64,000 bases of DNA from Acidimicrobiia bacterium (GTDB lineage Bacteria > Acidobacteriota > Vicinamibacteria > Vicinamibacterales > UBA2999), in contig VFZG01000002.1 of the NCBI GenBank assembly GCA_016871275.1, positions 62,001 through 126,000 of the forward strand. Direction: 5' to 3'. The notes below the pieces were generated by a model. The model worked only from the letters and a program-made list of their open reading frames with translations, was not told the origin of the DNA and searched no databases. Shown in pieces: positions 794 through 63,450 of the stretch (the first letter of the stretch is position 1; every line of letters begins with the position of its first letter). The position numbers and the translations under genes are program-made.

Positions 794-1981
794 ATGGCCG
801 GACCGTTAGCAGGATTCACGATTGTCGATTTGACGCGCGTGCTGTCAGGGCCGTATTGCACGATGGTGCTGGCCGATCTCGGCGCGCGGGTCATCAAGGT
901 GGAGCACCCGGGCAAGGGCGATGACACGCGTCACTGGGGACCACCGTTCCTTGGCAAGGAAAGCGCCTACTTCCTGAGCATCAACCGCAACAAGGAAAGC
1001 GTCACGGTTGACTTCAAGCCGCGGGAAGGCCGCGACGTGCTGGAGCGACTGGTCGCCAGGGCCGACGTGTTCATCGAGAACTTCCGGCCGGGCACGATCG
1101 AGCGCGCTGGATTCGGCTGGGAGGCGATGCACGCCCGGTTCCCGCGGCTGGTCTATGCCTCGATCTCGGGATACGGCCAGACCGGGCCACGTCGCGACGA
1201 GGCTGGCTACGACGCGGTGATGCAGGCCGAGGGCGGCCTGATGAGCGTCACCGGCGATCCGGATCGTCCCGGGTATCGGCTGGGCGTGGCGATCACCGAC
1301 ATGGTGTCGGGACTGTATTGCGCGCAGGGCATCACAGCCGCGCTGCTGGTGCGCGAGCGGACCGGACAGGGTCAGCGCGTCGACATCGGCATGCTCGACA
1401 CCACCGCGGCCCTGCTGACCTACCAGGCGGCGAACTGGTTCGCGACATCGCGGATTCCGCCGCGCCAGGGCAACCGTCACGCCACGATCGCGCCGTACGA
1501 GACGTTCACGACCATGGACGGTGACATCGTGATTGCCGTCGGCAACGACCCCACCTGGCAGAAGTTCTGTCCGGCCATCGGCCTGCCGGAGCTGGCTGCC
1601 GATCCGCGCTTCACGACGAACCAAGACCGGATGCAGAACTACCAGGCGATGCGGCCGCCAATCGACGCGGCGTTCCGCACCAAGACCAGCGCGCAATGGA
1701 TCGCCATACTGAACGCGGCCGGCGTGGCGAACGGCGAAGTCCGCGACATCGGGCAAATGCTGACCGACCCCCAGCTCGAGGCCCGCGAGATGATCACGAC
1801 CATGATGCACCCGACCGTGGGGGCGACGAAGGTGATCGGCGCGCCGATCAAGCTCTCGGACAATGCGGCCGCCGTCCGCACCCCGCCGCCGGTGCTCGGA
1901 CAACACACCGACGCGGTGCTGGCGGAGATCGGCTACGACCTGGCGACGATTGCGGAGTTGCGTCAGAAGCGCGTCGTCTAG
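794..1981 (+). CDS. CaiB/BaiF family CoA-transferase (formyl-CoA transferase-like)
   Basis: Class III CoA-transferase of 395 residues, which moves CoA between carboxylic acids through an aspartyl-CoA thioester. The N-terminal block MAGPLAGFTIVDLTRVLSGP and the following LADLGARVIKVEHP are the family signature. The likely catalytic aspartate lies in GVAITD at residue 169, the same position as in formyl-CoA transferase. SGYGQTGP and GQGQRVDI are also typical. The length matches the family. The substrate cannot be read from sequence; alternatives include succinyl-CoA:mesaconate-type enzymes. It may be co-transcribed with the upstream dehydrogenase, but no pathway link is evident. Confidence 0.9.
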   Translation: MAGPLAGFTIVDLTRVLSGPYCTMVLADLGARVIKVEHPGKGDDTRHWGPPFLGKESAYFLSINRNKESVTVDFKPREGRDVLERLVARADVFIENFRPGTIERAGFGWEAMHARFPRLVYASISGYGQTGPRRDEAGYDAVMQAEGGLMSVTGDPDRPGYRLGVAITDMVSGLYCAQGITAALLVRERTGQGQRVDIGMLDTTAALLTYQAANWFATSRIPPRQGNRHATIAPYETFTTMDGDIVIAVGNDPTWQKFCPAIGLPELAADPRFTTNQDRMQNYQAMRPPIDAAFRTKTSAQWIAILNAAGVANGEVRDIGQMLTDPQLEAREMITTMMHPTVGATKVIGAPIKLSDNAAAVRTPPPVLGQHTDAVLAEIGYDLATIAELRQKRVV

Positions 1982-2006
1982 CGTCCGGCTGTGACCGGAC
2001 CGTTGA

Positions 2007-2435
2007 TTAGCTGAGCCAGGGGCGGAGCTCATCGAGGAGCATGTCGATGACGTCCTCTTCGGTGAGTTGCACCAGCGGATTGCTGCCTTTGATCGTGCGA
2101 TCGCTCTGAATCACGCGGCTGCCGCGCGCGCGCGTGATCGTCACCAGCGGCTGCGGCGGATCGGCCGTGGAATCCAGCTCCATTCCGATGGCATCGTCTC
2201 GATTGCGCTCGGACTGGAGGCGCACGCCTCCGGCCGGCGTCATCACTTCGAACGGCAGGCCCTCGGCCTTGAGAATGTTGGCGAACATCCGGAACACCGG
2301 GATCGCCGCGGCCTGGAGAAAGGTCTCGTAGTTCGTGCGCGCCTCGGCGGCCCTGCTCCGCCGTTCGGCCTGATCGCGCCGTGCCTGCTCAATCGCAGAC
2401 TTCACGCGCTTGCGAACCACCGCTGCATCAGCCAT
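2007..2435 (-). CDS. Conserved-looking hypothetical protein (142 aa)
   Basis: I do not recognise the family. The first 35 residues are charged and probably helical (Arg/Ala/Glu-rich). A more structured part with RMFANILKAEGLPFEVMTP follows, then a C-terminal helix with EEDVIDMLLDELRPWL. There is no signal peptide and no membrane segment, so it should be cytoplasmic and soluble. It starts 9 bases after the methyltransferase stop and is probably the last gene of the iron/quinone operon. Coding is supported by normal composition and by a better protein than the opposite-strand frame. Confidence 0.72.
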   Translation of the reverse strand: MADAAVVRKRVKSAIEQARRDQAERRSRAAEARTNYETFLQAAAIPVFRMFANILKAEGLPFEVMTPAGGVRLQSERNRDDAIGMELDSTADPPQPLVTITRARGSRVIQSDRTIKGSNPLVQLTEEDVIDMLLDELRPWLS

Positions 2436-2444
2436 CCGTCAATA

Positions 2445-3221
2445 CTACGCGAGACGCTCGACCCCAGCAGCGGCGGATGCTGCCGATGCCCTCGACCGCT
2501 GCGCAACGTGAATGGACATCAGGCCGAACAGGCAGGGAATCACGGTCACGCGATCGAACCGTCGCGCTGCCAGGCGCTCGGCCACACCGCGCGCGCCGGG
2601 ATAGCGCTTGATCGATTCGGGAATGTAGCGGTAGGTGTCCGGATCGCGGTGCAGGATCCAGCCGAGCATCGCACCGGTGATGCCGAGATAGGTGAGATAG
2701 GCACTCCGCACGATGGCATTGTCGGGTTTGTTGAAATCAAGCGACAGCAGCCGGCCACCCGGCCGCAACACGCGCGCGATCTCGTCGATCGCGGCGTCGA
2801 GATCCGGGACGTTGCGGAGTCCGTAACCCGTCGTGACGATGTCGAACGCCGCCGATCGAAACGGCAGCTGCGTCATGTCTCCGGTGATGAACTCGACGCC
2901 GGACGCAGCCGGCCCCGCCGACGCTCGGGAGGAGCGACGGCGGGCCAGTTCGAGCATGCGGTGCGTGATATCGAGGCCCACCGTGCGTGCGCCGCGCGCC
3001 GCGGTCGCAAACGCCAGGTCACCGGTGCCCGAAGCGAGATCGAGGGCGCGCTCGCCAGGGCGGACGCCGGCGATCGACACCAGCGTCGCCTTCCATTTTG
3101 CGTCCTGCCCGTAGGACAGGATCCGGGTAATCAAGTCGTAGCGATCCGCAATCGTCGCAAACAGCTTGCGAACATGCGTGCGCTTGGCCTGCGGCGAGTC
3201 GAATGCGGAGTCCAGCGACAC
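2445..3221 (-). CDS. ubiE: UbiE/MenG quinone C-methyltransferase
   Basis: SAM-dependent methyltransferase for the last carbon methylation of menaquinone (or ubiquinone). The N-terminal segment VRKLFATIADRYDLITRILSYGQD is the UbiE signature 1 region. Motif I is ALDLASGTGDLA; motif II includes FRSAAFDIVTTGYGLRNVPD, the classic second UbiE signature. The protein has 258 residues, close to the usual 230-260. It starts 3 bases after the FeoB permease stop, so it is translated from the same message as the iron genes, an uncommon pairing. Menaquinone is likely if this is an acidobacterium, which is inference. Confidence 0.92.
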   Translation of the reverse strand: MSLDSAFDSPQAKRTHVRKLFATIADRYDLITRILSYGQDAKWKATLVSIAGVRPGERALDLASGTGDLAFATAARGARTVGLDITHRMLELARRRSSRASAGPAASGVEFITGDMTQLPFRSAAFDIVTTGYGLRNVPDLDAAIDEIARVLRPGGRLLSLDFNKPDNAIVRSAYLTYLGITGAMLGWILHRDPDTYRYIPESIKRYPGARGVAERLAARRFDRVTVIPCLFGLMSIHVAQRSRASAASAAAGVERLA

Positions 3222-3224
3222 GGT

Positions 3225-4619
3225 TCAGAACAACCACCGGGCGACGGTGGCGGTGAGGAATGTCACTCCGAACGCGAGCGCCAGCGGCAGCAACGCGCCA
3301 ATGGCCGCCCACTTGCCGCTCAACGTCTCCTTGTAGATGGTGATGATGGTGGTCGCGCACGGGTTGTGCAGCAGCGAGAACAACATCAGGTTGACCGCGG
3401 TGAGCATGGTCCAGCCGTGCTGATCCACCAGCAGGCGCCGAAGTGCGTCCAGCGACTCGAGCTCGGTCATCATGCCCTGCGCCATGTAGATCATCAACAT
3501 CGTCGGAACCACGATCTCGTTGGCGGGTATCGCAATGATGTAGGTGAGCAGGATGACGCCATCCAGGCCGATGGCCCGCCCCAGCGGGTTGAGCGCGCTC
3601 GACACGTGGGTCGCGAGGTTGGTGCCGCCGACCGAGATGTTGGCGAGCAGCCAGATGACGGCACCCGCCGGCGCCGCGGTCTGGATCGCGCGCCACAGCA
3701 CGAACAGCGTGCGATCGATGATCGAGGTGTAGAGAATCCTCAGGATCCCCGGCCGTCGATACGGCGGCAGTTCGAGCGTGAACGCCGACGCCTCTCCCCG
3801 AAGGATGGTCCGCGACAGCACCCACGACACGCCCAGCGTGAAGATCACGCCGAGCACGACGATGGCGACCACCGAGCCGGCGGCGACAAACGACGCGACG
3901 GCGGGCGGAAACGCGGCCGCCACGAACACGGTGGCGAGCATGATCAGCGTCGGGAAGCGCCCGTTGCAGGGCACGAAGTTGTTGGTGAGAATCGCCACCA
4001 GCCGCTCGCGCGGCGAATCAATCACGCGGGTCGCAATCACACCGGCAGCGTTGCAGCCGAAGCCCATCGTCATCGACAGCGCCTGCTTGCCGTGCGCACC
4101 GGCGCGCTTGAACAGGTAATCGAGATTGAAGGCCACCCGCGGCAGGTAGCCGAGGTCCTCGAGAATGGTGAACAGCGGGAAGAAAATGGCCATCGGCGGC
4201 AGCATCACGCTGACGACCCAGGCGAGGCCCCGGAATACGCCGTGCCACAGAAAGCCGGTCAGCCAGTCTGGCGATCCCCGGCTGGTGAACCACGCCGCCG
4301 CCCAGTCTTCGACCGCGAACAAGGCGGATGCGAGCATCGCCGAGGGCACGTTGGCGCCGACAATGGTCAGCCAGAAGACGACGGCGAGAATCAGCAGCAT
4401 CAACGGCAGGCCGAACAGCCGTGACGTGACGATGCGATCGATCTGCTGATCGAGCTCGAGCGTCCTCGATCCCTGGTCGTTGACGGCGCGGCGGGAGACG
4501 CGTTCCACTTCGCCGTAGATCGACGACACGACCTCTTCACGAAAGCCTGCTTCGAGCGATCGGCGCAGCGCGCCTGCCTCGCGAATGACGTCGGCCGGTG
4601 TCGTGACGGGTTCCGTCAT
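3225..4619 (-). CDS. feoB: FeoB membrane domain encoded as a separate protein
   Basis: Ferrous iron permease part of FeoB in the inner membrane, without the G domain. The start was set at the ATG at 4619 (MTEPVTTPADV); the open frame extends further upstream but that part has shadow-like composition. A charged N-terminal region of about 70 residues resembles the cytosolic linker before the first helix. Many hydrophobic segments follow, with the FeoB gate motifs FGCNAAGVIATRVIDSPRER and TNNFVPCNGRFPTL, and a C-terminal HNPCATTI block. The G domain is the next gene upstream, 43 bases away and in another frame, so FeoB is split here. Confidence 0.9.
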   Translation of the reverse strand: MTEPVTTPADVIREAGALRRSLEAGFREEVVSSIYGEVERVSRRAVNDQGSRTLELDQQIDRIVTSRLFGLPLMLLILAVVFWLTIVGANVPSAMLASALFAVEDWAAAWFTSRGSPDWLTGFLWHGVFRGLAWVVSVMLPPMAIFFPLFTILEDLGYLPRVAFNLDYLFKRAGAHGKQALSMTMGFGCNAAGVIATRVIDSPRERLVAILTNNFVPCNGRFPTLIMLATVFVAAAFPPAVASFVAAGSVVAIVVLGVIFTLGVSWVLSRTILRGEASAFTLELPPYRRPGILRILYTSIIDRTLFVLWRAIQTAAPAGAVIWLLANISVGGTNLATHVSSALNPLGRAIGLDGVILLTYIIAIPANEIVVPTMLMIYMAQGMMTELESLDALRRLLVDQHGWTMLTAVNLMLFSLLHNPCATTIITIYKETLSGKWAAIGALLPLALAFGVTFLTATVARWLF

Positions 4620-4662
4620 GCTGTGCGTGCGCTGCCTGCTGCGGCGCTGGCTGCCGTGGCCG

Positions 4663-5481
4663 TCACTGCGCACCTTGCAGCGCGATCTTGCGGCTGAAGC
4701 GCGCGTCGGGGGCCTGCTGGCGGGCGACGAGTTCGGCGAGACGGCCGGTCGTGAGCGCCTCTTCCACCGACGCATCGCCGTCGAGCAGGCGGATGGCAAT
4801 CCACCGCGCGTTCGGCACGCCGGGCGCCGCGGCTTCGATCATCGGCACCAGCTTCGACACGGCGCGCTCGAATGCGGGGGTGCCCTTCGAGCGGAGCGGC
4901 TGGGTGACGGTGTCGCCCGACGCCACGTTGGCGACGTCCTGCAACAACGCCATGATGTTCTCGCCGGTGCGAGCCACGATCGGGACCGCCGGCACGCCGA
5001 GATCGCGCGCCAGCGATCGCGTCTCGACCTCGATGCCGCGCCGCTTCGCTTCGTCGATCAGGTTGACGGCGACGACCACGCGGTCGGTGATCTCGAGCAC
5101 CTGCAGCACGAGATACAGGTTGCGCTCGAGCGCGCTGGCATCGACGACCACGACCGTGCAGTCGGGGCGTCCGAACAACAGAAAATTTCTCGCCACTTCT
5201 TCGTCGTCCGAGGCGGACAGCAGCGAGTAGGTGCCGGGCAGATCGACGAGCTTGTAGCGCTTGCCGGCGAACTGGAATCCGCCTTCGGCGCGGGTCACGG
5301 TCTTGCCGGGCCAGTTGCCGGTGTGCTGCCGCAAGCCGGTCAGCGCGTTGAACAGCGTCGACTTGCCGGTGTTGGGATTCCCGGCGAGCGCGACGACGCG
5401 ATCGAAGCCGCCCACGGCGGCGCCGAGCTGCGCCATCTCCGTGTGCATGGGACAGGTGTCGCAGGCGTGAGGGGCGGACAT
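4663..5481 (-). CDS. feoB: FeoB GTPase domain protein (stand-alone)
   Basis: GTP-binding half of a split ferrous iron transporter, 272 residues. G1 is GNPNTGKST (34-42), the switch I region is GNWPGKTV, G3 is DLPG (80-83) and G4 is NLID (140-143). The C-terminal third fits the FeoB guanine-dissociation helical region. It begins with a cysteine-containing tail, HACDTCPMH, a CxxC pair that could bind metal. The start overlaps the stop of the DtxR-FeoA gene by one base (TGATG). The split could be real or a frameshift in a joined gene; the 43-base spacer with no overlap favours a true split. Confidence 0.9.
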   Translation of the reverse strand: MSAPHACDTCPMHTEMAQLGAAVGGFDRVVALAGNPNTGKSTLFNALTGLRQHTGNWPGKTVTRAEGGFQFAGKRYKLVDLPGTYSLLSASDDEEVARNFLLFGRPDCTVVVVDASALERNLYLVLQVLEITDRVVVAVNLIDEAKRRGIEVETRSLARDLGVPAVPIVARTGENIMALLQDVANVASGDTVTQPLRSKGTPAFERAVSKLVPMIEAAAPGVPNARWIAIRLLDGDASVEEALTTGRLAELVARQQAPDARFSRKIALQGAQ

Positions 5482-6497
5482 CAGCGGCTCCTCTCCGGCT
5501 GCAGTGCCCGCACCAGCACGCGATCGGACTGCTCGCGCCGGAGCGCAATCGTGGTACCGCGCAGTCGATAGGCGCGCGGATCACCGCTGAACGGTTGCAG
5601 CTCGCTGCGCACGCGCGCGCCGGGCGTGAAGCCGAGATCGAGCAACCGCCGCCGCGCAAAGCCCTTGAGGTGCGGATCGAGCGCCACGATGTCGGCGGCG
5701 GCGCCAGACGGCAGGTCGCTCAACGGCAGGACGCCGTCCAGCGCGCGGGCGGGTTCGCTCGACGCGGCCACGACGTGAACATTGGCGGCCAGCATCGGCG
5801 CCAGGCGGAATTCGTTCTCTCCGTCGCTCAGCACCAGGCGCGATGGCGTCCGCTCGATCACGCGCACCACCTGGCCGAGCTTGAGTCCCTCGGCGATCAA
5901 CTGCGCGAAGGCCAGCGGCGGCTCGTCTTCGAGGTGCACGATTCGCGCGGGCGTGGACAGGGGCCACGCGCTCAGCACGGTGCCAGGCGCTTCGGGCACC
6001 ACGCCGTCAGGGCCGGGAATCGGATCACCGTGCGGATCGATGTCGGGATGACCCATCGCCGCGGAGAGGCGATCGAGTTGCTGCGGATTCAGACGATGCT
6101 CCTGCCGCTCTGCCTGGGCGTGCACACGGTCGACCGGCACACCCAGTTCCTCGGCAAGGTAGACCTCCCACAACCGGTGCGCACGCAGTACGTGCAACGC
6201 CAGGCGCTCACCGTCAGTCGTCAACTTCAGGTGCGTGCCGTCGCTGTGAATCAGGCCTTCCAGTTCGAGGCGTTCGGCGAGCGACAGCAACTCGCGATCG
6301 CTCAGTCCCAGTTCACCTTTGAGCGAGCGGAACGATGCGGAATGCCCGTCGGTAGCCTGGCGGAGGAGATGTTTGAGTGCGTTCTCGGTCCGTTCGCGGG
6401 CCAGTCCCGAGCGGTAGACGCGCCATTGGGCGGCGACGCCGTAGGTGGGCAGCAGCACGGCGAAGGCGACCAGCGAGAGAAGGATGGCGATTGCCAC
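5481..6497 (-). CDS. Membrane-anchored DtxR/MntR-like protein with C-terminal FeoA domain
   Basis: Three-part protein of 338 residues. Residues 1-24 form one transmembrane helix (IAILLSLVAFAVLLPTYGVA). A winged-helix DtxR/MntR domain follows, with the metal-ligand region AHRLWEVYL and QAERQEHRL and a typical HPDIDPHGDPIPGPDG loop. The last 75 residues or so form a FeoA-like SH3 domain (LLDLGFTPGARV). The start is GTG at 6497. An ATG 13 bases upstream with a better ribosome site is in another frame and gives no sensible protein. It may sense iron at the membrane or supply FeoA function to the split FeoB it precedes; whether it binds DNA is unknown. Confidence 0.85.
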   Translation of the reverse strand: MAIAILLSLVAFAVLLPTYGVAAQWRVYRSGLARERTENALKHLLRQATDGHSASFRSLKGELGLSDRELLSLAERLELEGLIHSDGTHLKLTTDGERLALHVLRAHRLWEVYLAEELGVPVDRVHAQAERQEHRLNPQQLDRLSAAMGHPDIDPHGDPIPGPDGVVPEAPGTVLSAWPLSTPARIVHLEDEPPLAFAQLIAEGLKLGQVVRVIERTPSRLVLSDGENEFRLAPMLAANVHVVAASSEPARALDGVLPLSDLPSGAAADIVALDPHLKGFARRRLLDLGFTPGARVRSELQPFSGDPRAYRLRGTTIALRREQSDRVLVRALQPERSR

Positions 6498-6499
6498 GG

Positions 6500-6515
6500 T
6501 TTTGAGTCATCAAAA
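6500..6515. promoter_or_regulatory. Palindrome TTTTGA-GTCA-TCAAAA between divergent DtxR-type genes
   Basis: Perfect 6-bp arms with a 4-base centre, only 3 bases upstream of the GTG of the DtxR-FeoA gene and 69 bases upstream of the second regulator. The 87-base space between the two divergent regulator genes is clearly more A/T-rich than its surroundings. The position fits an operator for one or both metal regulators. The assignment is inference. Confidence 0.45.
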
Positions 6516-6584
6516 TAATAAACTCCTGCTCACGAAAAGTCAACGCCCAGTTGTCGGACTGTCTGGTAACATGCTGAAAACGCA

Positions 6585-7253
6585 ATGCTTCCGTCGAGTA
6601 CGGTCGAGAATTACCTGAAGGCGATCTACGTGGGCGAGACCCATTTGGTCGGTGGCCAGAAGCTGGTCCCGATGGGCCAGCTGGCGTCTGCGTTGGGCAT
6701 CGCCCCCGGCACCGCCACGACAATGGTCAAGGCGTTGGCGGAGTCAGGCCTCGTCACCTACGAGCCGTATAACGGCGTGCGGCTGACGCCGGCAGGAGAG
6801 AAGCTCGCGGCCCGGGTCCTGCGCCGCCATCGATTGATCGAGTTGTTTCTCGTCCAGGTCATGGGCATGAACTGGGACGAAGTTCACGAAGACGCCGAGC
6901 AGATGGAACACGTGGTGTCCGATCGGCTGATCGAGCGCATGGACGAAATGCTCGGCCGGCCGGAGTTCGATCCCCACGGCGATCCGATTCCCACCCCCGA
7001 TGGACAGCTCGCGCACCGCGCACTCGAGACGCTGCTCACCTGTCCGCTCAACACGCCCGTCACCGTGGCGCGCGTCACCGATCAGGACGCCGCGTTCCTG
7101 CGCTTCATCGAGAGCCATCACCTGAAGCCAGGTGAAACGATCCAGGTCGAAGAGCGCGACGAAGCGTCTGACAGCGTCAAGCTGAAGGGCCGCGACGACC
7201 AGCGCATGACAATCGGCGCGCGCGCCGCGTCGAAGCTGTTAGTGTCGACCTAG
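6585..7253 (+). CDS. DtxR/MntR-family metal-dependent transcriptional regulator
   Basis: Cytoplasmic DNA-binding regulator of 222 residues, predicted to respond to Fe(II) or Mn(II). The N-terminal winged helix (STVENYLKAIY, then MGQLASALGIAPGTATTMVK) is followed by the dimerisation/metal domain with RHRLIELFLVQVMGM and DAEQMEHVVSDRL, which contain the His/Glu ligands of the family. The C-terminal 70 residues resemble a FeoA/SH3-like domain. It is divergent from the feo operon and is its most likely regulator. Its last 15 bases overlap the end of the convergent phosphatase gene. Confidence 0.9.
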   Translation: MLPSSTVENYLKAIYVGETHLVGGQKLVPMGQLASALGIAPGTATTMVKALAESGLVTYEPYNGVRLTPAGEKLAARVLRRHRLIELFLVQVMGMNWDEVHEDAEQMEHVVSDRLIERMDEMLGRPEFDPHGDPIPTPDGQLAHRALETLLTCPLNTPVTVARVTDQDAAFLRFIESHHLKPGETIQVEERDEASDSVKLKGRDDQRMTIGARAASKLLVST

Positions 7254-53263: not shown

Positions 53264-53860
53264 CTACTCCGCGTAGACGACGGTGCGGATGCTGCGGTGG
53301 CCGCGCGCCAGTTCCGCGGGCAGCAGTTTACTCAGGTAGACCTTCGACTCGCCGATGTCGCCCGGGTTCGGTTCGTGTTTCACGACGTTGAACTGCAGCT
53401 GCGCCAGCACCGCGCGCATGTCGTAGTAACGGTTCTTCGTCTTGACCACGACCTCTTCGAAGCCGGCCGCCATGGCCCACACTTCCGATTCTTCGGTGAG
53501 GGCGCGGAAGTGGCCCTGGCCGCGCCAGTCGCGCCGCGTGCCGCCAATCCACTGATACAGAATGCGGCGGCCGTCGAAGGCGACCGTGCCCGCCAGCCGC
53601 GCCACCAGGTCGCGGAGCTTCGGGACCGACTCGTCGGCGCGGATTTCGTGGACGATCTTGTAGGACACCGGCACCGGCGCGCCGGTCGGGTCGTCGGGCA
53701 GCGGCGCCTCGGCGATCAGGATGAGCGACTCGCGGTCGCCGAGCCGATCGATGATCTCGGCGGCCGTCTTGCGGCGCGGGAACTCCCCGAAGTTCTCCTC
53801 GATGTACTGAATCTCCCACGCGCCCGGCTCGAGCGCGTACTGCTTGATCAGGTATTCCAC
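53264..53860 (-). CDS. GNAT-like acetyltransferase
   Basis: Cytoplasmic protein of 198 residues. The central part has the GNAT order: a strand SYKIVHEIRADE, then ILYQWIGGTRRDWRGQGHFR, where RGQGHFRALTEE is the acetyl-CoA pyrophosphate loop and helix, then a strand GFEEVVVKTKN and MRAVLAQLQFNVV. The substrate is unknown. The N-terminal EYLIKQYALEPGAWEIQYIE is not familiar. It is 64 bases downstream of fhs on the same strand. Confidence 0.7.
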   Translation of the reverse strand: MEYLIKQYALEPGAWEIQYIEENFGEFPRRKTAAEIIDRLGDRESLILIAEAPLPDDPTGAPVPVSYKIVHEIRADESVPKLRDLVARLAGTVAFDGRRILYQWIGGTRRDWRGQGHFRALTEESEVWAMAAGFEEVVVKTKNRYYDMRAVLAQLQFNVVKHEPNPGDIGESKVYLSKLLPAELARGHRSIRTVVYAE

Positions 53861-55649: not shown

Positions 55650-56879
55650 TTACGGGAGTAGCACCGGGCGCGCGGCGGCGTTCCACTGCGCGTCCCATCG
55701 CTCGGCGGGATGCTGCGCGAGCCAGCCCCGGCTCTTCGCCAATGGCGAGTCGGGCGGCAGGGTTCGCGTGGCGAGGGCCACAAACAAGTGCGCGAGATCG
55801 CCGGGGTCTCGGAACAACACGCCTTCCTGGCCGGGCGTCATGACTTCGGTGAGCACCGGCGCGTAGTCGTAGACCGCAACCGGCACACCAGCGCCGCGTA
55901 AATCCGCGAGCTTCATGGGCAGGTCGAGACCGGACGACGACTGGTGCAGGCACAACCCAAGGTCGGCCATGCCGAGCAACACCGGGTAGTCAGAAGGCTC
56001 AAGCCAGATGGTGCGGACGGCAATCGCCTTGAAGGAGCGCCGCGCCGCGCGCGCCTCGAACGTATCACGCAGCGCGCCCCGTCCGGTGAGAAACACCATC
56101 ATGGCCGGCGATGCCGGGGCGCCGGCGTTCTTCGTCAGCTGGCGTTCGGCGCGCTCGAGCGCTTCGAGCACCAAATCGAAATCTTCGTCCGGTGTCCAGC
56201 TGGTCGGGCACACCACAATCGGCGGACGCGTGCCAAGCTGGCTCCCAACCGAGATCTTCTGCCACAGGGCGTCCGCCCGGGCGGTCGACGGGCGGTCGAA
56301 CGCGGCGGCGGGCCGGTCGTAGACCACAGCCGGCGTCACGCGGTATTCGCGCGACAGCCACCCGGCCAGCGTGTTCGAAACGGCGAGGTGCGCGTCGGCT
56401 CGCTTCGCCCAACGACGCTCGCTGCGCGCCACGGATTTCACCGCGCGATGATGCTCGCCGAGCTTGATGGCGGCGATGGTGTGGGAGAGGTTGTGCCAGT
56501 CGATGACGAACCGCGCGCCGCGCAGGCGGGCCACCAGCCATGCGATCGCCAGTGTCGGGAAGGCCGGGGGGTTCTGCACGAGAACCGTATCGGGCTTCGG
56601 GAGACGCATCAGGGTGAAGAACAGCCGGCGCGCCTGGCCAACGCCGCGCACTGCCGACCCCCACACGAACCGCCGAACGCCGCCCGAGCTTCTGCCCGCG
56701 AACGCGCGATCGGGCAGGCGGTGCACGTGGATGCGCGGGTTCGACTCGACCTCGGGCGTGACCGCGGCGCCTTCAAGGCCGATCAGATCCACCTCGCCGG
56801 CGCCGGCCAGCGAGACCGCGTGATACTGCATCCGCGGGCTGCGGCCCAGATCTCCGATTACGATGACTGCGGTTCGCAT
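55650..56879 (-). CDS. ALG1-like (GT33-type) mannosyltransferase
   Basis: Glycosyltransferase of 409 residues resembling eukaryotic ALG1, which adds the first mannose to GlcNAc2-PP-dolichol. ALG1-type blocks are IGDLGRSPRMQYHAVSL at the N-terminus, FVIDWHNLSHTIAAIKLGEH, VCPTSWTPDEDFDLVLEALE, and ADLGLCLHQSSSGLDLPMKL near the C-terminus. No transmembrane anchor is seen. It starts head-to-head with the WecA-like gene; the start codons share a base. The acceptor here would be a lipid-linked GlcNAc sugar. The similarity is from memory of the family and needs a search. Confidence 0.82.
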   Translation of the reverse strand: MRTAVIVIGDLGRSPRMQYHAVSLAGAGEVDLIGLEGAAVTPEVESNPRIHVHRLPDRAFAGRSSGGVRRFVWGSAVRGVGQARRLFFTLMRLPKPDTVLVQNPPAFPTLAIAWLVARLRGARFVIDWHNLSHTIAAIKLGEHHRAVKSVARSERRWAKRADAHLAVSNTLAGWLSREYRVTPAVVYDRPAAAFDRPSTARADALWQKISVGSQLGTRPPIVVCPTSWTPDEDFDLVLEALERAERQLTKNAGAPASPAMMVFLTGRGALRDTFEARAARRSFKAIAVRTIWLEPSDYPVLLGMADLGLCLHQSSSGLDLPMKLADLRGAGVPVAVYDYAPVLTEVMTPGQEGVLFRDPGDLAHLFVALATRTLPPDSPLAKSRGWLAQHPAERWDAQWNAAARPVLLP

Positions 56880-57868
56880 TGACTGTCTACCTGCTGCTCG
56901 GGCTGACCAGCCTCGTCCTGACCCTTATTCTGACCCCGCTGATTGGACGGGCCTCGACTCGGCTTGGACTGGTAGATGCCCCGGGCGGCCGGAAGGTTCA
57001 CCTGCACTCGGTGCCGCGGATGGGCGGACTCGCGGTGTGCGTGGCGGCCGCCGTGGCGCTGGCGCTCTTCGCCGTCGTTGGTCCCGCCATGCTTGACACA
57101 CCGGACTGGCTCACGATGCGTCCCTTGTTGCTGGCCGGGGGCCTCATTTTCCTGACGGGCCTGATCGACGACGTCCGGGAGCTCGGCGCCGGCACGAAGC
57201 TGCTGTTCGAGTTCGGCGCGGCGGCGCTGGTCATGTCGTCGGGGCTGCTGATCGAGCGGGTGACGTTCGTCGGCCAGACCTGGCCGCTTGGCTGGCTGGC
57301 CTGGCCGGTGACCGCCGTGTGGCTGGTGGGACTGACCAATGCCTTCAACCTCATCGATGGCATCGACGGTCTTGCCACCGGCATTGTGGTGCTGGCCGGC
57401 AGCGCGTGCGGCATCATCCTGATCGTCCGCGGCCACCACGCAGAGGCCATGCTGCTGGCCACGATCGTCGGCGCGGCACTCGGCTTCCTGTTCTTCAACT
57501 TCTCGCCGGCATCGATCTTCCTCGGCGACAGCGGCAGCCTGCTGTTCGGATTCCTGCTGGCCGCGACGGCCATCACCGGGTGGCAGAAGGGTGCCACGGC
57601 GCTTGCGGCCGGCGTGCCGCTGATGATCTTCGCACTGCCGATCGTCGACAGCGCACTCGCGCTGGGGCGGCGCAGCCTCGCCGCGCCGGCGGCCGGTCGA
57701 TCGATCGGCGCGATCCTGAAGCACATTACGCAACCCGATCGCGAGCACATTCACCACCGCCTGACGGCGATGGGCTGGTCAGTGCGGCGCACCGTGCTGG
57801 TGCTGTATGGCATCACCGCGGTGCTGTCAATGCTGGCGCTGGCCACCGCCAACGTGACCAAGCCATGA
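56879..57868 (+). CDS. UDP-GlcNAc:undecaprenyl-phosphate GlcNAc-1-P transferase (WecA/TagO type)
   Basis: Membrane enzyme of 329 residues with about ten helices that starts glycan synthesis on the lipid carrier. Signature sites are GLIDDVREL (the DD pair), NAFNLIDGIDGLA, SIFLGDSGSLLFG and the HIHHRL loop near the C-terminus. The N-terminal GLVDAPGGRKVHLHSVPRMG is also typical. The start codon is TTG. This family is the bacterial counterpart of ALG7. The stop overlaps the next start by ATGA. Confidence 0.93.
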   Translation: MTVYLLLGLTSLVLTLILTPLIGRASTRLGLVDAPGGRKVHLHSVPRMGGLAVCVAAAVALALFAVVGPAMLDTPDWLTMRPLLLAGGLIFLTGLIDDVRELGAGTKLLFEFGAAALVMSSGLLIERVTFVGQTWPLGWLAWPVTAVWLVGLTNAFNLIDGIDGLATGIVVLAGSACGIILIVRGHHAEAMLLATIVGAALGFLFFNFSPASIFLGDSGSLLFGFLLAATAITGWQKGATALAAGVPLMIFALPIVDSALALGRRSLAAPAAGRSIGAILKHITQPDREHIHHRLTAMGWSVRRTVLVLYGITAVLSMLALATANVTKP

Positions 57869-59016
57869 AACGCGTGCTGCTGGTGCAGCCATCGCTGCAG
57901 CCGCCGGGTGGCGGCAACGGCGTCGCCGCCTGGGTGCTGCAGGCACTGGTGCGGACGCATCGCGTGACCGTGCTGTCGTGGCGGCCGGTCGAGATCGAGC
58001 CGATCAACCGCTTCTTCGGCACGCATCTCACGCGCGACGATTTCGCGTCGATCGTGGTGCCGCGATCGTGGAGCTGGCTGGCCGATCACCTGCCGGTGCC
58101 GGCGACGCTGATCAAGCTGTCGCTGCTGATGCGCTACACCCGCCGGGTCAGTGACGGCTTCGACGTGCTGTTCGGTGTCTACAACGAAACGGACTACGGG
58201 CGGCGAGGCATCCAGTACGTGCACTACCCTACGTATCTGCGTCCGCGACCGGAGGTTGACCTGCGGTGGTATCACCCGCCACAACGAGGCCTCAACGCGT
58301 ATTACGCCTTCGCGGACTGGCTGGCGGACTTCTCGCTGGATCGCATGAAGCACAACGTGACGCTGGTCAATTCGAACTGGACCGGCGAACGCGTGACGCG
58401 TGTTCTCGGCATCACGCCGCGCACGCTGTATCCACCGATCGCCGATCCGGCGCCCGGGCGACCCTGGGCAGAACGCCGGAACGGATTCCTGGCCATCGGG
58501 CGCATCTCGCCGGAGAAGGAATACGAGCGCGTCATGAAGATCCTCGCGCGCGTGCGCGAGCAGGTTCCGGATCTGACGCTGGCGATCGTCGGCACCTGGG
58601 ACCGCCACTCACGCGGCTACCTCGGGACGTTGAGGTCGCTGGCGGAATCGCTCGGCCCGTGGATCAGGTTTCGAGACAACCTGACGCGTGCCGATGTCGG
58701 CGACCTCATGGCCTCGCATCGATACGGGATCCACGGCATGCGCGAAGAGCATTTCGGCATGGCGCCCGCCGAACAGGCACGCGCCGGGATGATCGTCTGG
58801 GTGCCACGCGGCGGCGGGCAGATGGAGATCGTTGGCAATCAAGCGGCGCTCATGTACGACTCCGACGATGACGCGGTCCGGAAAATCGTCGGCACGTTGA
58901 CCACGCCGGCCGAGCAGCAACGCCTGCGCGGCCTGCTCGCCGTCAGCAGCGATCGCTTCTCGACGGATCGCTTCATGCAGCAGGTCCGCGAACTCGTGGA
59001 CACGTTCAACGGCTGA
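57865..59016 (+). CDS. ALG11-like GT4 glycosyltransferase A
   Basis: GT-B transferase of 383 residues. The N-terminal VLLVQPSLQPPGGGNGVAAW is followed by IQYVHYPTYLRPRP, VTLVNSNWTGERVTRVLG, YPPIADP and IGRISPEKEYERVMKI. The C-terminal site is YGIHGMREEHFGMAPAEQAR and ends in GGGQMEIVG. The YVHYP, NSxW, EHFG and GG pattern is that of ALG11 mannosyltransferases. It overlaps both neighbours (ATGA, TGATG). It probably adds a sugar, perhaps mannose, to the lipid-linked glycan. Confidence 0.82.
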   Translation: MKRVLLVQPSLQPPGGGNGVAAWVLQALVRTHRVTVLSWRPVEIEPINRFFGTHLTRDDFASIVVPRSWSWLADHLPVPATLIKLSLLMRYTRRVSDGFDVLFGVYNETDYGRRGIQYVHYPTYLRPRPEVDLRWYHPPQRGLNAYYAFADWLADFSLDRMKHNVTLVNSNWTGERVTRVLGITPRTLYPPIADPAPGRPWAERRNGFLAIGRISPEKEYERVMKILARVREQVPDLTLAIVGTWDRHSRGYLGTLRSLAESLGPWIRFRDNLTRADVGDLMASHRYGIHGMREEHFGMAPAEQARAGMIVWVPRGGGQMEIVGNQAALMYDSDDDAVRKIVGTLTTPAEQQRLRGLLAVSSDRFSTDRFMQQVRELVDTFNG

Positions 59017-60131
59017 TGCGCGTATTGTTCGTACATCGTTCGCTGGCGCCCCCGGGCGGCGGCACTGCGGTCGCTGCGTGGATGCTGCACATGCTGGCCC
59101 ACGAGCACGACGTCACCACGCTGACGACCGATCCGTGGTCACCGGCCGCGACCAATGCCTTCTACGGAACGTCGATCCCGGACTCGGTGAAGCGAATCGT
59201 CATCCCGCCGCCACTGCGCTGGCTGTCGGGATTGCCTGAGGATCGCTTGACGCGTTTGCGCCTGTGTTCCGTGCTGCACTACGCGCGGCCGATCGCCGAC
59301 CGGTTCGATCTGTTGGTCTCCGGAGAAAACTACGCGCCGTTTCCCCGCCGCGGGATCCAGTACGTGAACTACCCTGCGGATTTGCAGCCCGCGCCGGCGA
59401 AGTGGCCGGTGCTGGTAAACGGTTACTTCGCGTTCTGTGACTGGCTGCTCGGCGGCCGATGGGCGGACGCTGCCCAAAACGTGACGCTGGCCAACTCCCA
59501 GTGGACCGCGGACGGCTTGGAGCGCCTCGGCGAAGTCTCAAGACCGATCGTCGTGTATCCGCCAGTGATCAAGCCGGAAGGATTGAGTTGGTCGAAGCGC
59601 GACGACGCCTTTCTTTGTATCGGACGCTTTCACGGTTCGAAACGCATTGAACTGGCGATCGCCATCGTCAAGCGAGTCCGGGAGTCCGTGCTGCCATCGG
59701 CACGGCTGCTGCTCGTCGGGTCCGCCGTCGACGCGCACTACACCAAACGCATCCGGCGCATGGCGCTCCGCGAGGGTGATTGGATCGACTTCCGTGAAGA
59801 TCTCTCGCGCCAGCAGCTCAACGCGCTGATGGGGCGGACGAAGTACGGCATCCAGGCGATGGAGAACGAACACTTTGGCATGGCCACCGCGGAGATGACG
59901 CGAGCCGGGTGCCTGGTGTTCGCGCATCGCAGTGGCGGCACGCCCGAAGTGCTGGATCACGAGAACGCGGTGTTGTGGTCGTCGGAGGATGAAGCGGTGG
60001 CTCGTATTTCAGCAATCGTTCAGGGCGGCCGAGGCGACGTGCTCAGCAGTCGCCTGCGAGTCCACGCCGAGAAGTTTTCCAGCGAGGCGTTCATCGAACG
60101 GTTCCGAAGGACCTTGAAGCTCGGCCTCTGA
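59016..60131 (+). CDS. ALG11-like GT4 glycosyltransferase B
   Basis: Paralogue of the preceding gene, 371 residues. Matching blocks are VLFVHRSLAPPGGGTAVAAW, IQYVNYPADLQPAP, TLANSQWTADGLERLG, VYPPVIKPEG, IGRFHGSKRIELAIAIV and YGIQAMENEHFGMATAEMTR, with GGTPEVLDHENAVLW at the end. It came from a tandem duplication of the neighbour. The two probably add successive residues of the same glycan. It is the last gene of the rightward group, and two copies of a dispersed repeat follow it. Confidence 0.82.
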   Translation: MRVLFVHRSLAPPGGGTAVAAWMLHMLAHEHDVTTLTTDPWSPAATNAFYGTSIPDSVKRIVIPPPLRWLSGLPEDRLTRLRLCSVLHYARPIADRFDLLVSGENYAPFPRRGIQYVNYPADLQPAPAKWPVLVNGYFAFCDWLLGGRWADAAQNVTLANSQWTADGLERLGEVSRPIVVYPPVIKPEGLSWSKRDDAFLCIGRFHGSKRIELAIAIVKRVRESVLPSARLLLVGSAVDAHYTKRIRRMALREGDWIDFREDLSRQQLNALMGRTKYGIQAMENEHFGMATAEMTRAGCLVFAHRSGGTPEVLDHENAVLWSSEDEAVARISAIVQGGRGDVLSSRLRVHAEKFSSEAFIERFRRTLKLGL

Positions 60132-60153
60132 CTGACGGCGGCTACTGACAGAC

Positions 60154-60174
60154 GGGGGCTGGCCCCAAATGTCG
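60154..60174 (+). repeat. Dispersed palindromic repeat, copy 2
   Basis: GGGGGCTGGCCCC followed by AAATGTCG, 20 bases from a third copy and identical to the sequence at 41177-41200 over this length. Confidence 0.7.
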
Positions 60175-60194
60175 TACTGACAAGTGGACTCAGG

Positions 60195-60218
60195 TGGGGG
60201 CTGGCACCAAATGTCGCA
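60195..60218 (+). repeat. Dispersed palindromic repeat, copy 3
   Basis: TGGGGGCTGGCACC followed by AAATGTCGCA, one base different from the other copies. It lies directly before the stop of the ABC flippase gene. These two copies fill most of the 89-base convergent gap. Confidence 0.7.
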
Positions 60219-60220
60219 TT

Positions 60221-61993
60221 CTAGGTCAACTGACGAAAGGCTGGGTCTGATATCAGGTCGGAGTATTTCCCAATGGCGGCCAGCTTGCCCTCGCGCAGGT
60301 AAATCAACTGATCGCAGTTCTTTACCGTCGACAACCGGTGCGCGATAGCGATCACCGTCCGCGTGCCGTGCACGTTCGCGATGGCTTCGGTCACCTCGCG
60401 TTCGGTCTGGTTGTCGAGTGCCGCGGTCGCCTCGTCAAAGAGCAGCACCGGCGGATCGTGATACAGCGCGCGCGCGATCGCGACGCGCTGGCGCTGCCCG
60501 CCTGACAGCCGGATGCCGTTTTCTCCCACCATGGTGTCGAGGCGCGAGGGGAATGACGCCACGACTTCGTCGAGCCGGGCCTGCTGGACCGCGGCGGCCA
60601 GGCGCGCCTCGTCGATCGCGCTGTCCGGAATCCCGAACGCGATATTGCGGCGCAGCGTATCGTCGAGAAGGTAGACGCTCTGCGACACGTAGCCAATCTG
60701 CCGCTGCCAGGCGCGCTCCTGCCCTTCGAGCGCGACGCCGTCGATCAGGACGTGGCCGGTCGTCGGCGGCAGGAGGCCCAGCAGTACATCGACGAGCGTG
60801 CTCTTGCCGGCGCCGGTCGGTCCGACAATGCCGACGGACTGGCCGCGCCGAACGGTGAATGAAATGTCTTCGAGCGCATAGGGCGGCCCGCCCTCGTAGC
60901 CGAACGACACGCGATCGCAGGTCAGCGTCGCCTGCAGCATAGGCCTTTCCGGCTGGAAGGTCCGTGGCGCCGGCGCTCGCAAGTGCCGCATGTCGTCGTC
61001 CATGCCCTGAATCCACGGGTGCGCCTCCCGCATATAGCCGGCGTTGAGCATGATGCGATTCGCGGACGGCACCACGCGGAACCCGGTGTAGGCGAACAGC
61101 GCCAGCACCGAAATGGCGTCGCCACCCGACACGTCCTGCCGCAGCACGAGGAAGATCACGAGTAGCATGCTCAGCATCAGCGTGGCCTCGACGCCGAGCC
61201 TTGCCGCGCTGGCCGCCCACGCGCGCCGTTGTTTCGTGACGCCGAGATCGCGCTTCACGTGACGGAACCGCTCTTCGAAGAACGGCTGCCGCCCGCTCAC
61301 CGTCACGTCCTTGATCGCGCCAAGGCTCTGCTGCAACAGGTGCAGCTGGTGTTGGTAGAGCTGGCGCTCCGATTCACCGATGCGCTCCCACGATCGTCGG
61401 GCCATGACGATCGGCACCAGCGCCAGCGCGAGCACGATCCCCACGGTGACGAGCGTGATCGGCGGCGCGGACACGAGCAGCACGATCGACAGCGCGAGGA
61501 TGATCACGGCCTCGGCAAAGATGTTGACCGCGGATCCGGCGGCCAGCTCGAACACGATGTCCGAGGCGCGCGTCATGGGTTCGATCAGCGACGCGGAACG
61601 GCGGCGGGCGTGAAATTGGTAGTCGGCGCCGAGATACCTTGCCAGCAGGCGTTCTGCGGCAATGGCGGACGATCGGTACACCAGTCCTTGCCGCAACCAT
61701 TCGGCCCACGACAGAAACAGCGCGCGCAGCAGGTAGAAGACTGCTACGGCCAGTACGAGCACGGCGACGACCACGCGAGGATCACTGCTCGGCGACATCG
61801 ACCACAGCCGCGACACCACCGGAGCGCGGCGCACGAGCTCGGGATCGACAACCAGGCGCAGGAGGCCGAACATGGCCAGCGCGCCGGCGGCCTCGATCAG
61901 CGCCGCCAGCGCCGCCACCGGCAACAGCCCGAACCACCGCCAGCGTTCGCGCGCCGGCAGCCACCCGATCACCGCAAGTAAGTCACGGATCAA
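60221..61993 (-). CDS. ABC transporter with fused permease and ATPase (PglK/MsbA-like flippase)
   Basis: Homodimeric ABC exporter half of 590 residues. Six membrane helices (ALIEAAGALAMFGLLRLVV near the start) are followed by an ATPase with Walker A GIVGPTGAGKSTLVDVLL, signature LSGGQRQRVAIARAL, Walker B VLLFDEATAALD and the switch His in AIAHRLSTV. The N-terminal LPARERWRWFGLLPVAALAA recalls the PglK type, which flips lipid-linked oligosaccharides. Location after the ALG-like cluster supports such a role; substrate is not proven. It is convergent with the GT4 gene. Confidence 0.9.
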   Translation of the reverse strand: MIRDLLAVIGWLPARERWRWFGLLPVAALAALIEAAGALAMFGLLRLVVDPELVRRAPVVSRLWSMSPSSDPRVVVAVLVLAVAVFYLLRALFLSWAEWLRQGLVYRSSAIAAERLLARYLGADYQFHARRRSASLIEPMTRASDIVFELAAGSAVNIFAEAVIILALSIVLLVSAPPITLVTVGIVLALALVPIVMARRSWERIGESERQLYQHQLHLLQQSLGAIKDVTVSGRQPFFEERFRHVKRDLGVTKQRRAWAASAARLGVEATLMLSMLLVIFLVLRQDVSGGDAISVLALFAYTGFRVVPSANRIMLNAGYMREAHPWIQGMDDDMRHLRAPAPRTFQPERPMLQATLTCDRVSFGYEGGPPYALEDISFTVRRGQSVGIVGPTGAGKSTLVDVLLGLLPPTTGHVLIDGVALEGQERAWQRQIGYVSQSVYLLDDTLRRNIAFGIPDSAIDEARLAAAVQQARLDEVVASFPSRLDTMVGENGIRLSGGQRQRVAIARALYHDPPVLLFDEATAALDNQTEREVTEAIANVHGTRTVIAIAHRLSTVKNCDQLIYLREGKLAAIGKYSDLISDPAFRQLT

Positions 61994-62109: not shown

Positions 62110-63450
62110 ATGCAAGACCTCACGACCGGCTCGCTGACGGGCCATCTCCTCAAAACGACGAGCTTCATGCTGGTGAGCATGGTCTTCCAGACGCTCTACA
62201 TCCTGGTCGACTTGTTCTGGGTGGGCCGTCTCGGCACCGATGCCATCGGCGCCGTCGGGCTGGCGGGCAATTTGTCGTTCATCGTGATCGCCCTCACGCA
62301 GGTCCTGAGTGTTGGCGCGACCACGCTCGTCTCGCACGCGTCGGGACGCAAGGATCAGGATCACGCCATCTTCCTGTTCAACCAGTCGCAGGTGCTGTCG
62401 ATGGTCGCGGCGACGATCTTCCTGGCGATCGGCATGCTGACCCGGCAGCAGTACGCCGCCAGCCAGAGCGCCAGCGAAGGCATGCGCATCGCCACTGAGG
62501 AGTACCTGCTGTGGTTCATCCCGGCGATGGCGTTGCAGTTCGCAATGGTCGGAATGGCGGCGGCGCTGCGCGGCACGGGCAACTTCAGGCCCGGCATGAT
62601 TGTGCAGACGACGACGGTGATCATCAACATCGTACTCGCGCCCTTCCTGATCTTCGGCTGGGGCCCATTCCCGGCGTGGGGCGTGGCCGGCGCCGCCATT
62701 GCGACGCTGGTGGCCATCACCATCGGCGTCGCGTGGCTCGCCGTGTACTTCATGACCGCGACCGGCTACCTCCGCTTCCACTTCGGCCACTGGTCGCCGC
62801 AGCTCAAGGTCTGGTGGGACATGCTGAGGATCGGCCTGCCCGCCGGCGCCGAGTTCGCGCTGATGGGCGTCTACCTCGCGGTGATCTACGCGATTACCAA
62901 GCCGTTCGGCGCCGCCGCACAGGGCGGATTCACCATCGGGCTTCGCATCGTGCAGTCCGCGTTCCTGCCCGTCGTCGCGCTTGGCTTTGCCGTGGCGCCG
63001 GTCGCCGGGCAGAACTTCGCTGCCCGCAAGGGCGATCGTGTCCGCGCCGCCTTCAAGGCCGCCGCCGGGCTGTCGGTGGGCGCAATGGTGGTCTCAGGCA
63101 CCGCGATCTACCTCGGAGCCGGGCCGCTGATGCGCATCTTCACCTCCGACCCCGACGCGATCGCCGTCGGTGTGGTTTACCTGCGCATCGTGGTGCTCAC
63201 CTTCGTCGCTTCCGGGGTCACCTTCGTCACGTCGAGCATGTTCCAGGCGCTCGGCAACACCATTCCCTCGCTGGTCACGTCGGGCCTGCGCCTGGTGCTC
63301 AGCGTGATGCCCGCCGTGCTGCTGTCCCGTGTCGCCGGTTTCAGCCTGACGTGGATCTGGTATCTCAGCGTGGTGGCGGTGCTCCTGCAGATGGGCGCCA
63401 ACCTGCTGCTGTTACAGAGGGAATTCCGATTGAAGCTCGCGCAGGTATAA
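62110..63450 (+). CDS. MATE family efflux transporter
   Basis: Twelve-helix antiporter of 446 residues with two MatE halves. The first half includes QTLYILVDLFWVGRLGTDAI and LRGTGNFRPGMIVQTTTVII; the second half begins with LRIGLPAGAEFALMG and includes SSMFQALGNTIPSLVTSGLR. Cation-coupled export of drugs or metabolites is the family role; the substrate is not known. A less likely alternative is a Wzx-type flippase, but the half-repeats and gene context favour MATE. Confidence 0.9.
   Translation: MQDLTTGSLTGHLLKTTSFMLVSMVFQTLYILVDLFWVGRLGTDAIGAVGLAGNLSFIVIALTQVLSVGATTLVSHASGRKDQDHAIFLFNQSQVLSMVAATIFLAIGMLTRQQYAASQSASEGMRIATEEYLLWFIPAMALQFAMVGMAAALRGTGNFRPGMIVQTTTVIINIVLAPFLIFGWGPFPAWGVAGAAIATLVAITIGVAWLAVYFMTATGYLRFHFGHWSPQLKVWWDMLRIGLPAGAEFALMGVYLAVIYAITKPFGAAAQGGFTIGLRIVQSAFLPVVALGFAVAPVAGQNFAARKGDRVRAAFKAAAGLSVGAMVVSGTAIYLGAGPLMRIFTSDPDAIAVGVVYLRIVVLTFVASGVTFVTSSMFQALGNTIPSLVTSGLRLVLSVMPAVLLSRVAGFSLTWIWYLSVVAVLLQMGANLLLLQREFRLKLAQV

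Follow-up and report, generated by a model that had tools for sequence, protein, structure and literature searches.

An ALG1 orthologue and a candidate ALG-type N-glycosylation cluster in an acidobacterial genome

Can a bacterium build a lipid-linked glycan with ALG-type enzymes, and would such a glycan serve N-glycosylation? The question is raised by five adjacent genes at positions 55650-61993 of a 64,000-nucleotide stretch of DNA, referred to here as the window (G000:C2:62001-126000), on contig VFZG01000002.1 of an Acidobacteriota genome of 3.96 Mb (the source genome, G000). The cluster is read here as the cytoplasmic half of an ALG-type bacterial N-glycosylation pathway that would feed an STT3-type oligosaccharyltransferase (OST) encoded further along the same contig, at C2:142560-144749; the probability of this reading is put at about 0.7. 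As judged by sequence comparison, it draws on the gene families, the ALG1 orthology, the OST motifs, the shared contig, the co-occurrence of cluster and STT3, and a GMPP-type enzyme. From these we infer a route: its sugars and linkages, the order of its steps, the substrate that is flipped and the N-linkage. The WecA-type enzyme (P0002) would load a HexNAc-1-phosphate, probably GlcNAc, onto undecaprenyl phosphate, and the ALG1 orthologue (P0001) would then attach a hexose in beta linkage, probably mannose donated by GDP-Man. Two ALG11-like GT4 enzymes (P0003 and P0004) would elongate the lipid-linked glycan, a PglK-like ABC transporter (P0005) would flip it, and the AglB/STT3-type OST would transfer it to asparagines of exported proteins.

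P0001 and the ALG1 family

P0001 (55650..56879, minus strand, 409 amino acids) is, by full-length similarity, an ALG1 (GT33-type) orthologue and not a generic GT4 enzyme; it is predicted to be a beta-mannosyltransferase acting on lipid-PP-GlcNAc(n). The three blocks named in the initial annotation, GDLGRSPRMQYHA, DWHN and SSSGLDLPMK, are all present. Because the match to yeast Alg1 is full-length and colinear at E 3.4e-60, these block matches are judged to lie far beyond chance. A profile of P0001 and 18 bacterial relatives (19 rows) matches yeast Alg1 along the full length of the sequence (residues 40-445, 316 bits) and matches zero PDB glycosyltransferases at E<=1. Besides the ALG1 copies, no protein in a 336-protein set matched at E<=10 in the yeast Alg1 comparison. 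Among 1085 open reading frames (ORFs) of at least 250 amino acids, yeast Alg1 has 45 matches at E<=1e-3; each lies at an ALG1 locus, and the number includes repeat copies from overlapping loci. The ALG1-like assignment is thus borne out by ALG1-specific, full-length similarity to the yeast and human proteins.

The yeast Alg1, Alg2 and Alg11 and human ALG1 comparison sequences are typed copies and not database entries, and the human sequence agrees with the published residue at all eight positions checked (R48, Q50, P98, S258, R276, E351, A360 and G384, as given in passages of PMC7616334 and PMC9545396; S258L also appears in a passage of PMC10816918). Human ALG1 is closer to the best bacterial copy, at locus L013 (38.8% identity, 301 bits), than to yeast Alg1 (36.7%, 257 bits), and matches P0001 at 34.3% (235 bits). 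Across 29 aligned rows (27 bacterial, human and yeast), 38 columns are invariant. The residues of the ALG1 congenital disorder of glycosylation are kept to differing degrees in the 27 bacterial rows: R48 and G384 in 27, A360 in 26, Q50 in 18, E351 in 12, R276 in 9, P98 in one and S258 in none, the alignment having a gap there. The pair DX6D within SSSGLDLPMKxxD occurs in 28 of the 29 rows, yeast and human included, at the place where the P0003 family has EX7E, and this donor-site pair may be diagnostic of ALG1.

For P0001, Pfam and NCBIfam return only generic or sub-threshold GT4 rows, neither having a row named for ALG1, and its AlphaFold model is GT-B-like (mean predicted local distance difference test score 87.1), with BshA and MshA as the nearest structures. 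These rows and this common fold favour a generic GT4 enzyme that resembles ALG1 by convergence or in its motifs alone, and generic GT4 hits alone, which the initial annotation had taken as decisive against ALG1, are literally what the two databases give. The rank of BshA and MshA is uninformative for ALG1 membership, since the general GT-B fold is expected of any GT4 relative; no solved ALG1 structure was found in the PDB for comparison. The direct ALG1 comparison overturns the database result: the full-length, colinear identity of P0001 to yeast and human ALG1 is 33-34%, the family profile leaves the PDB glycosyltransferases unmatched, and DX6D stands in place of EX7E. The generic GT4 reading is rejected as extremely improbable, unless the typed ALG1 sequences of yeast and human contain gross errors, and the human one agrees at all eight residues.

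Eukaryotic ALG1 (CAZy GT33, chitobiosyldiphosphodolichol beta-1,4-mannosyltransferase), which in yeast and human cells attaches the first mannose of the glycan destined for proteins, is colinear with P0001 through DWHN, TSW/F..DED and SSSGLDLPMK..D. It differs by an N-terminal extension (yeast residues 1-39), whereas P0001 belongs to a bacterium whose genome has no detected chitobiose-forming GT28. The start of P0001 aligns with residue ~39-40 of yeast Alg1, and since the extension of the endoplasmic reticulum form is missing, the protein is filed with the ALG1 family and not with the ER-anchored form.

Partner enzymes, oligosaccharyltransferase and sugar donor

The five genes are intact ORFs and lie where the initial annotation had put them. 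P0002, a WecA-type polyprenyl-phosphate HexNAc-1-phosphate transferase (56879..57868, plus strand, 329 amino acids), matches PF00953 at E 2.8e-38, over the cut-off, and scores 109.7 bits with the NCBIfam model ECA_wecA, under its cut-off of 326. It contains the motif HIHHR. Its pairing with ALG7 may hold as a functional analogy. The start codons of the ALG1 and WecA genes meet head to head at 56879 (56877-56881) with zero intergenic space, an arrangement also seen at L003. The ATG of P0003 at 57865 overlaps the WecA stop codon and the start of P0004 overlaps the P0003 stop at 59016, so that WecA, P0003 and P0004 look like one operon.

P0003 (57865..59016, plus strand) and P0004 (59016..60131, plus strand; 38-39% identical to P0003) are GT4 glycosyltransferases of one family, with EX7E in 13 of 13 rows. 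The profile of this family ranks yeast Alg11 (75 bits) above a bacterial ALG2 (56 bits) and yeast Alg2 (25 bits), a weak ranking over few comparators, and reaches 47 bits with the best PDB GT4. Of the ALG11 blocks named earlier, YVHYP, NSNW and EHFG are found in P0003 and NSQW and EHFG in P0004, which has YVNYP in place of the first. PF15924, the ALG11 N-terminal domain, was not seen in either protein (Pfam, E<=1). The two proposed ALG11 enzymes are therefore labelled ALG11-like only.

P0005 (60221..61993, minus strand) carries PF00664 and PF00005 and is a PglK-like ABC half-transporter, a predicted lipid-linked oligosaccharide flippase. Among the 60 PDB matches listed, PglK/WlaB (8.1e-68) is the best single-length half-transporter, and the matches that rank above it are double-length ABC proteins. 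The proposed PglK likeness stands in this respect; the cut-off of the PglK equivalog in NCBIfam is missed (244 bits against 1000), and the MsbA (281 bits) and HepA (271 bits) models score higher. An ABC homologue also lies inside the ALG1 clusters at L013, L017, L055, L059, L062 and L063.

The search for a PglB, AglB or STT3 homologue elsewhere in the genome, suggested in the initial annotation, finds a single one over the PF02516 cut-off, on the same contig and 16.6 kb beyond the window end. This predicted STT3/AglB oligosaccharyltransferase (C2:142560-144749, L022:16560-18749, minus strand, 729 amino acids) also matches PF22627 over its cut-off and reaches 372 bits with TIGR04154, under the cut-off of 450. 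Its alignment with AfAglB (E 1e-51) spans residues 6-560, and the OST motifs fall in register: the first Asp, DHH, the TIXE-loop Glu, GQNRF and WWDQG. A GMPP-type guanylyltransferase at L083:1129-2190 of the same genome is nearest in the PDB to mannose-1-phosphate guanylyltransferases (1.5e-47). TIGR01479 was dropped as a marker of GDP-Man, only its C-terminal part being matched, and the GMPP-type enzyme was then found.

The Campylobacter pgl locus makes a cytoplasmic lipid-linked glycan, flips it with the ABC transporter PglK and transfers it with the STT3-type OST PglB. The proposed pathway would resemble it in all three features and would differ in that ALG1 and ALG11-like enzymes, with ALG2 in some relatives, build the glycan and in that the OST is closest to AglB. 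In the PDB this OST is closest to Archaeoglobus AglB (3waj/5gmy), as in archaeal N-glycosylation; unlike the archaeal AglB systems, the gene set is bacterial, with ALG1 and WecA, and the L013 GT28 has MurG as its nearest family. The Sulfolobus N-glycan has a chitobiose core according to a paper on Agl24 (PMC8993221), in which Alg13/14 are treated and whose main text contains neither the term Alg2 nor the term Acidobacteri.

Clusters in relatives and co-occurrence with STT3

Fuller clusters are found in relatives. L013 holds WecA, two STT3 genes, a GT28, ALG1, ALG2 and an ABC transporter; its STT3 genes stand in tandem (1189-3972 and 4044-6833, 927 and 929 amino acids). ALG1, STT3, ALG2, GT28, an ABC transporter and an ALG11-like gene form the L017 cluster; L019/L059 holds ALG11-like, GT28, ALG1, STT3 and ABC genes, and L063 (G630) holds WecA, GT28, ALG1, ALG11-like, ABC and STT3. 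At L055 (G238), ABC, ALG1 and ALG11-like genes are accompanied by STT3 at 3.9 kb from ALG1, and at L062 (G514) the cluster of ABC, ALG11-like, ALG1 and GT28 has its STT3 on a separate contig. ALG1 and STT3 are immediate neighbours in L017 and L019/L059 and are less than 5 kb apart in L013, L055 and L063. At L112 (G556), ALG2, ALG11-like, ABC, GT28 and ALG1 lie inside 15 kb, and this set with no STT3 match suggests another use or a missed OST. A GT28 gene lies less than 5 kb from ALG1 on the same contig in G246, G297, G298, G299, G514, G556 and G630, and not in G238.

Yeast Alg2 matches L013:9256-10497 at 1.8e-57 and L017:11767-12960 at 1.5e-54, and among the 1085 ORFs it matches only the L013 (= L052 copy) and L017 ORFs; both are ALG2 (GT4) orthologues. 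The L013 GT28 is closest in NCBIfam to MurG (222 bits, cut-off 250) and reads as a MurG paralogue. Eukaryotic contamination was rejected for L013, where ALG1 and ALG2 are uninterrupted and stand beside genes for trigger factor, ClpP, ClpX and Lon, neighbours that we take to be such by eye.

ALG1 is rare, being present in 12 of 297 Acidobacteriota genomes (source genome included), 2 of 235 genomes of the L017 phylum and 3 of 247 of the L013 phylum; in viral contigs, 22 pattern matches yielded 0 confirmed copies. The loci nearest to P0001, L001-L007, are 61-74% identical to it and all come from metagenome-assembled genomes (MAGs), six of them labelled Acidobacteria(ota) or an acidobacterial genus. 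L001 is labelled 'Cyanobacteria bacterium' but its contig position coincides with that of G167, of the window's genus, and it is probably a mislabelled MAG. The clusters of G107 and L001 gave no P0004 homologue. A second ALG1 subfamily, 40-44% identical to P0001, occurs in other Acidobacteriota (L008-L012, L014-L016, L018; for example L012:7341-9254), and several of its loci adjoin apparent xanthine-dehydrogenase and hydantoinase genes, as read from sequence starts.

STT3 over the cut-off is found in 12 of the 13 cluster-type ALG1 genomes searched (G000, G107, G167, G277, G238, G246, G297, G298, G299, G301, G514 and G630) and in 7 of 60 ALG1-free genomes (Fisher p 3e-8, kinship uncorrected, the ALG1-free genomes being a non-random sample). 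By phylum, the ALG1-free genomes give 1 of 20, borderline, in Acidobacteriota and 0 of 20 in the G297 phylum. Each genome is counted once, G300 repeating G167 and G302 repeating G277; the window-type loci L003, L005 and L006 and the second-subfamily loci L008, L009, L011, L015, L016 and L018 stand outside these STT3 counts. The P0003 family (E<=1e-20) is present in 11 of 12 searched cluster-type genomes, the exception being G297, and in none of six second-subfamily and 11 other genomes, with a remnant in G293.

G293, the smallest of five same-genus genomes, gives no ALG1 match. Its locus L113 runs from a MATE gene through a 74-residue P0003 remnant (L113:10270-10491) to FTHFS from residue 115 on. 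At L121:6805-7548, STT3 residues 1-82 are joined to residues 517-703, residues 83-516 being gone; this remnant lies between the methyltransferase side and the homologue of L022:14760, a syntenic site. As a control, coverage in G293 was determined for 30 genes of G000 taken from the two stretches; it is 0.75 or more for 19 of them. Coverage is 0 for ALG1, WecA and the ABC transporter, 0.19 for P0003, 0.16 for P0004 and 0.37 for STT3, the only gene at a distance from the cluster in which a large inner part is missing while the ends are kept.

Use of the glycan, origin of ALG1 and flanking genes

Several findings weigh against N-glycosylation. The STT3 gene lies outside the cluster in the window's genome and in G514, where the match is weak (31 bits), and the G000 protein has WWDQG where AfAglB has WWDYG. 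A chitobiose-forming second GT28 was not found in G000, whose sole GT28 (one PF04101 match) is taken as MurG. The L083 enzyme scores 299 bits against an NCBIfam cut-off of 440, and the C-terminal restriction of the TIGR01479 match holds for G000 and other window-genus ALG1 genomes (four searched). STT3 was not matched at E<=0.001 in the cluster-type genome G556, nor found over the cut-off in any of eight searched second-subfamily genomes, the G261 match falling below it; because ALG1 occurs without STT3 over the cut-off, ALG1 alone does not imply N-glycosylation. Among ALG1-free genomes of the G298 phylum, 6 of 20 have STT3 over the cut-off. In G293, coverage is 0 also for L022_2512, 3423, 7502, 8980 and 13170, and MATE is kept with a gap at residues 55-119. 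Since five other genes of the compared stretch are missing too, the joint loss of the cluster and the STT3 middle is at most suggestive of a pathway link, and MAG misassembly could account for the gaps.

The eight second-subfamily genomes and G556 fit a different use, in which the lipid-linked oligosaccharide made by the cluster goes into a surface polymer or a glycolipid (an O-antigen or exopolysaccharide unit) and STT3 is served by another route; WecA and ABC transporters are also used in O-antigen routes. This use is considered unlikely, given that STT3 co-occurs with the window-type cluster, that both are damaged in G293 and that ALG1 and STT3 share one cluster in five relatives, no search aimed at Wzy polymerases or O-antigen ligases having been made. 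The same co-occurrence, shared clusters and damage, together with the STT3 on the same contig, support N-glycosylation, one of the two uses proposed in the initial annotation. In such a pathway, ALG1 of the source genome probably acts on a single GlcNAc, because the chitobiose step of relatives is missing with the second GT28. A second strong GT28 was not found in the four window-genus ALG1 genomes, where G167 and G277 give 22-bit second matches, nor was a full-length ALG2, the G000 search giving one partial GT4 match (3.4e-16, query residues 259-384). A shorter glycan than in L013 or L017 is therefore expected for the window's genus.

In Lombard 2016 (PMC4973528), Alg1 has no known origin: its closest prokaryotic relatives are given as undetermined, and it is regarded as perhaps a eukaryotic innovation. 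The loci described here supply ALG1 orthologues from bacteria, of which some adjoin STT3 and two adjoin ALG2 orthologues, and with these in view the origin of Alg1 becomes testable by phylogeny and biochemistry. Tentatively, the enzymes for the mannosyl core of the eukaryotic N-glycan, ALG1 and ALG2 with an ALG11-like enzyme, may form a working N-glycosylation route in bacteria that has an STT3 and a flippase of its own, and eukaryotic ALG1 may descend from this bacterial clade or share a bacterial source with it. Horizontal transfer of ALG1, in some cases with ALG2, from eukaryotes to these bacteria would suit the patchy spread of the gene over the three phyla; it is doubtful, since the bacterial subfamilies are about as distant from each other (40-44% to P0001) as human ALG1 is from its best bacterial match (39%) and have differing neighbourhoods. 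An unrooted ALG1 tree places the two eukaryotic rows beside L013 with weak support (73/92), by which the direction is not settled; it contains only these two eukaryotic rows and omits the fragments L006, G088 and G246 and repeat copies.

No paper on bacterial Alg1 or Acidobacteria OSTs was found among the listings of the open PMC library, subscription papers and CAZy lying outside this search, and priority for bacterial ALG1 is not claimed. GT33 as an automatic label on microbial data is already in print in a gut metagenome study (PMC12690562), a note on a Pasteurella genome (PMC13068622) and a paper on soil transcripts (PMC13188737), with the enzyme itself unanalysed in the passages concerned. 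Bacterial ALG1 and ALG2 could serve as tools for assembling the Man-GlcNAc2 core, whether in E. coli or in vitro.

Two conserved neighbours flank the cluster. A 198-residue protein at 53264-53860, with no Pfam row at E<=0.01, is conserved beside the cluster in relatives at 71-89% identity. A MATE-family transporter (62110..63450, plus strand; PF01554, 1.5e-41), for which no part in the pathway is claimed, is also present at loci L001-L004 and L007.

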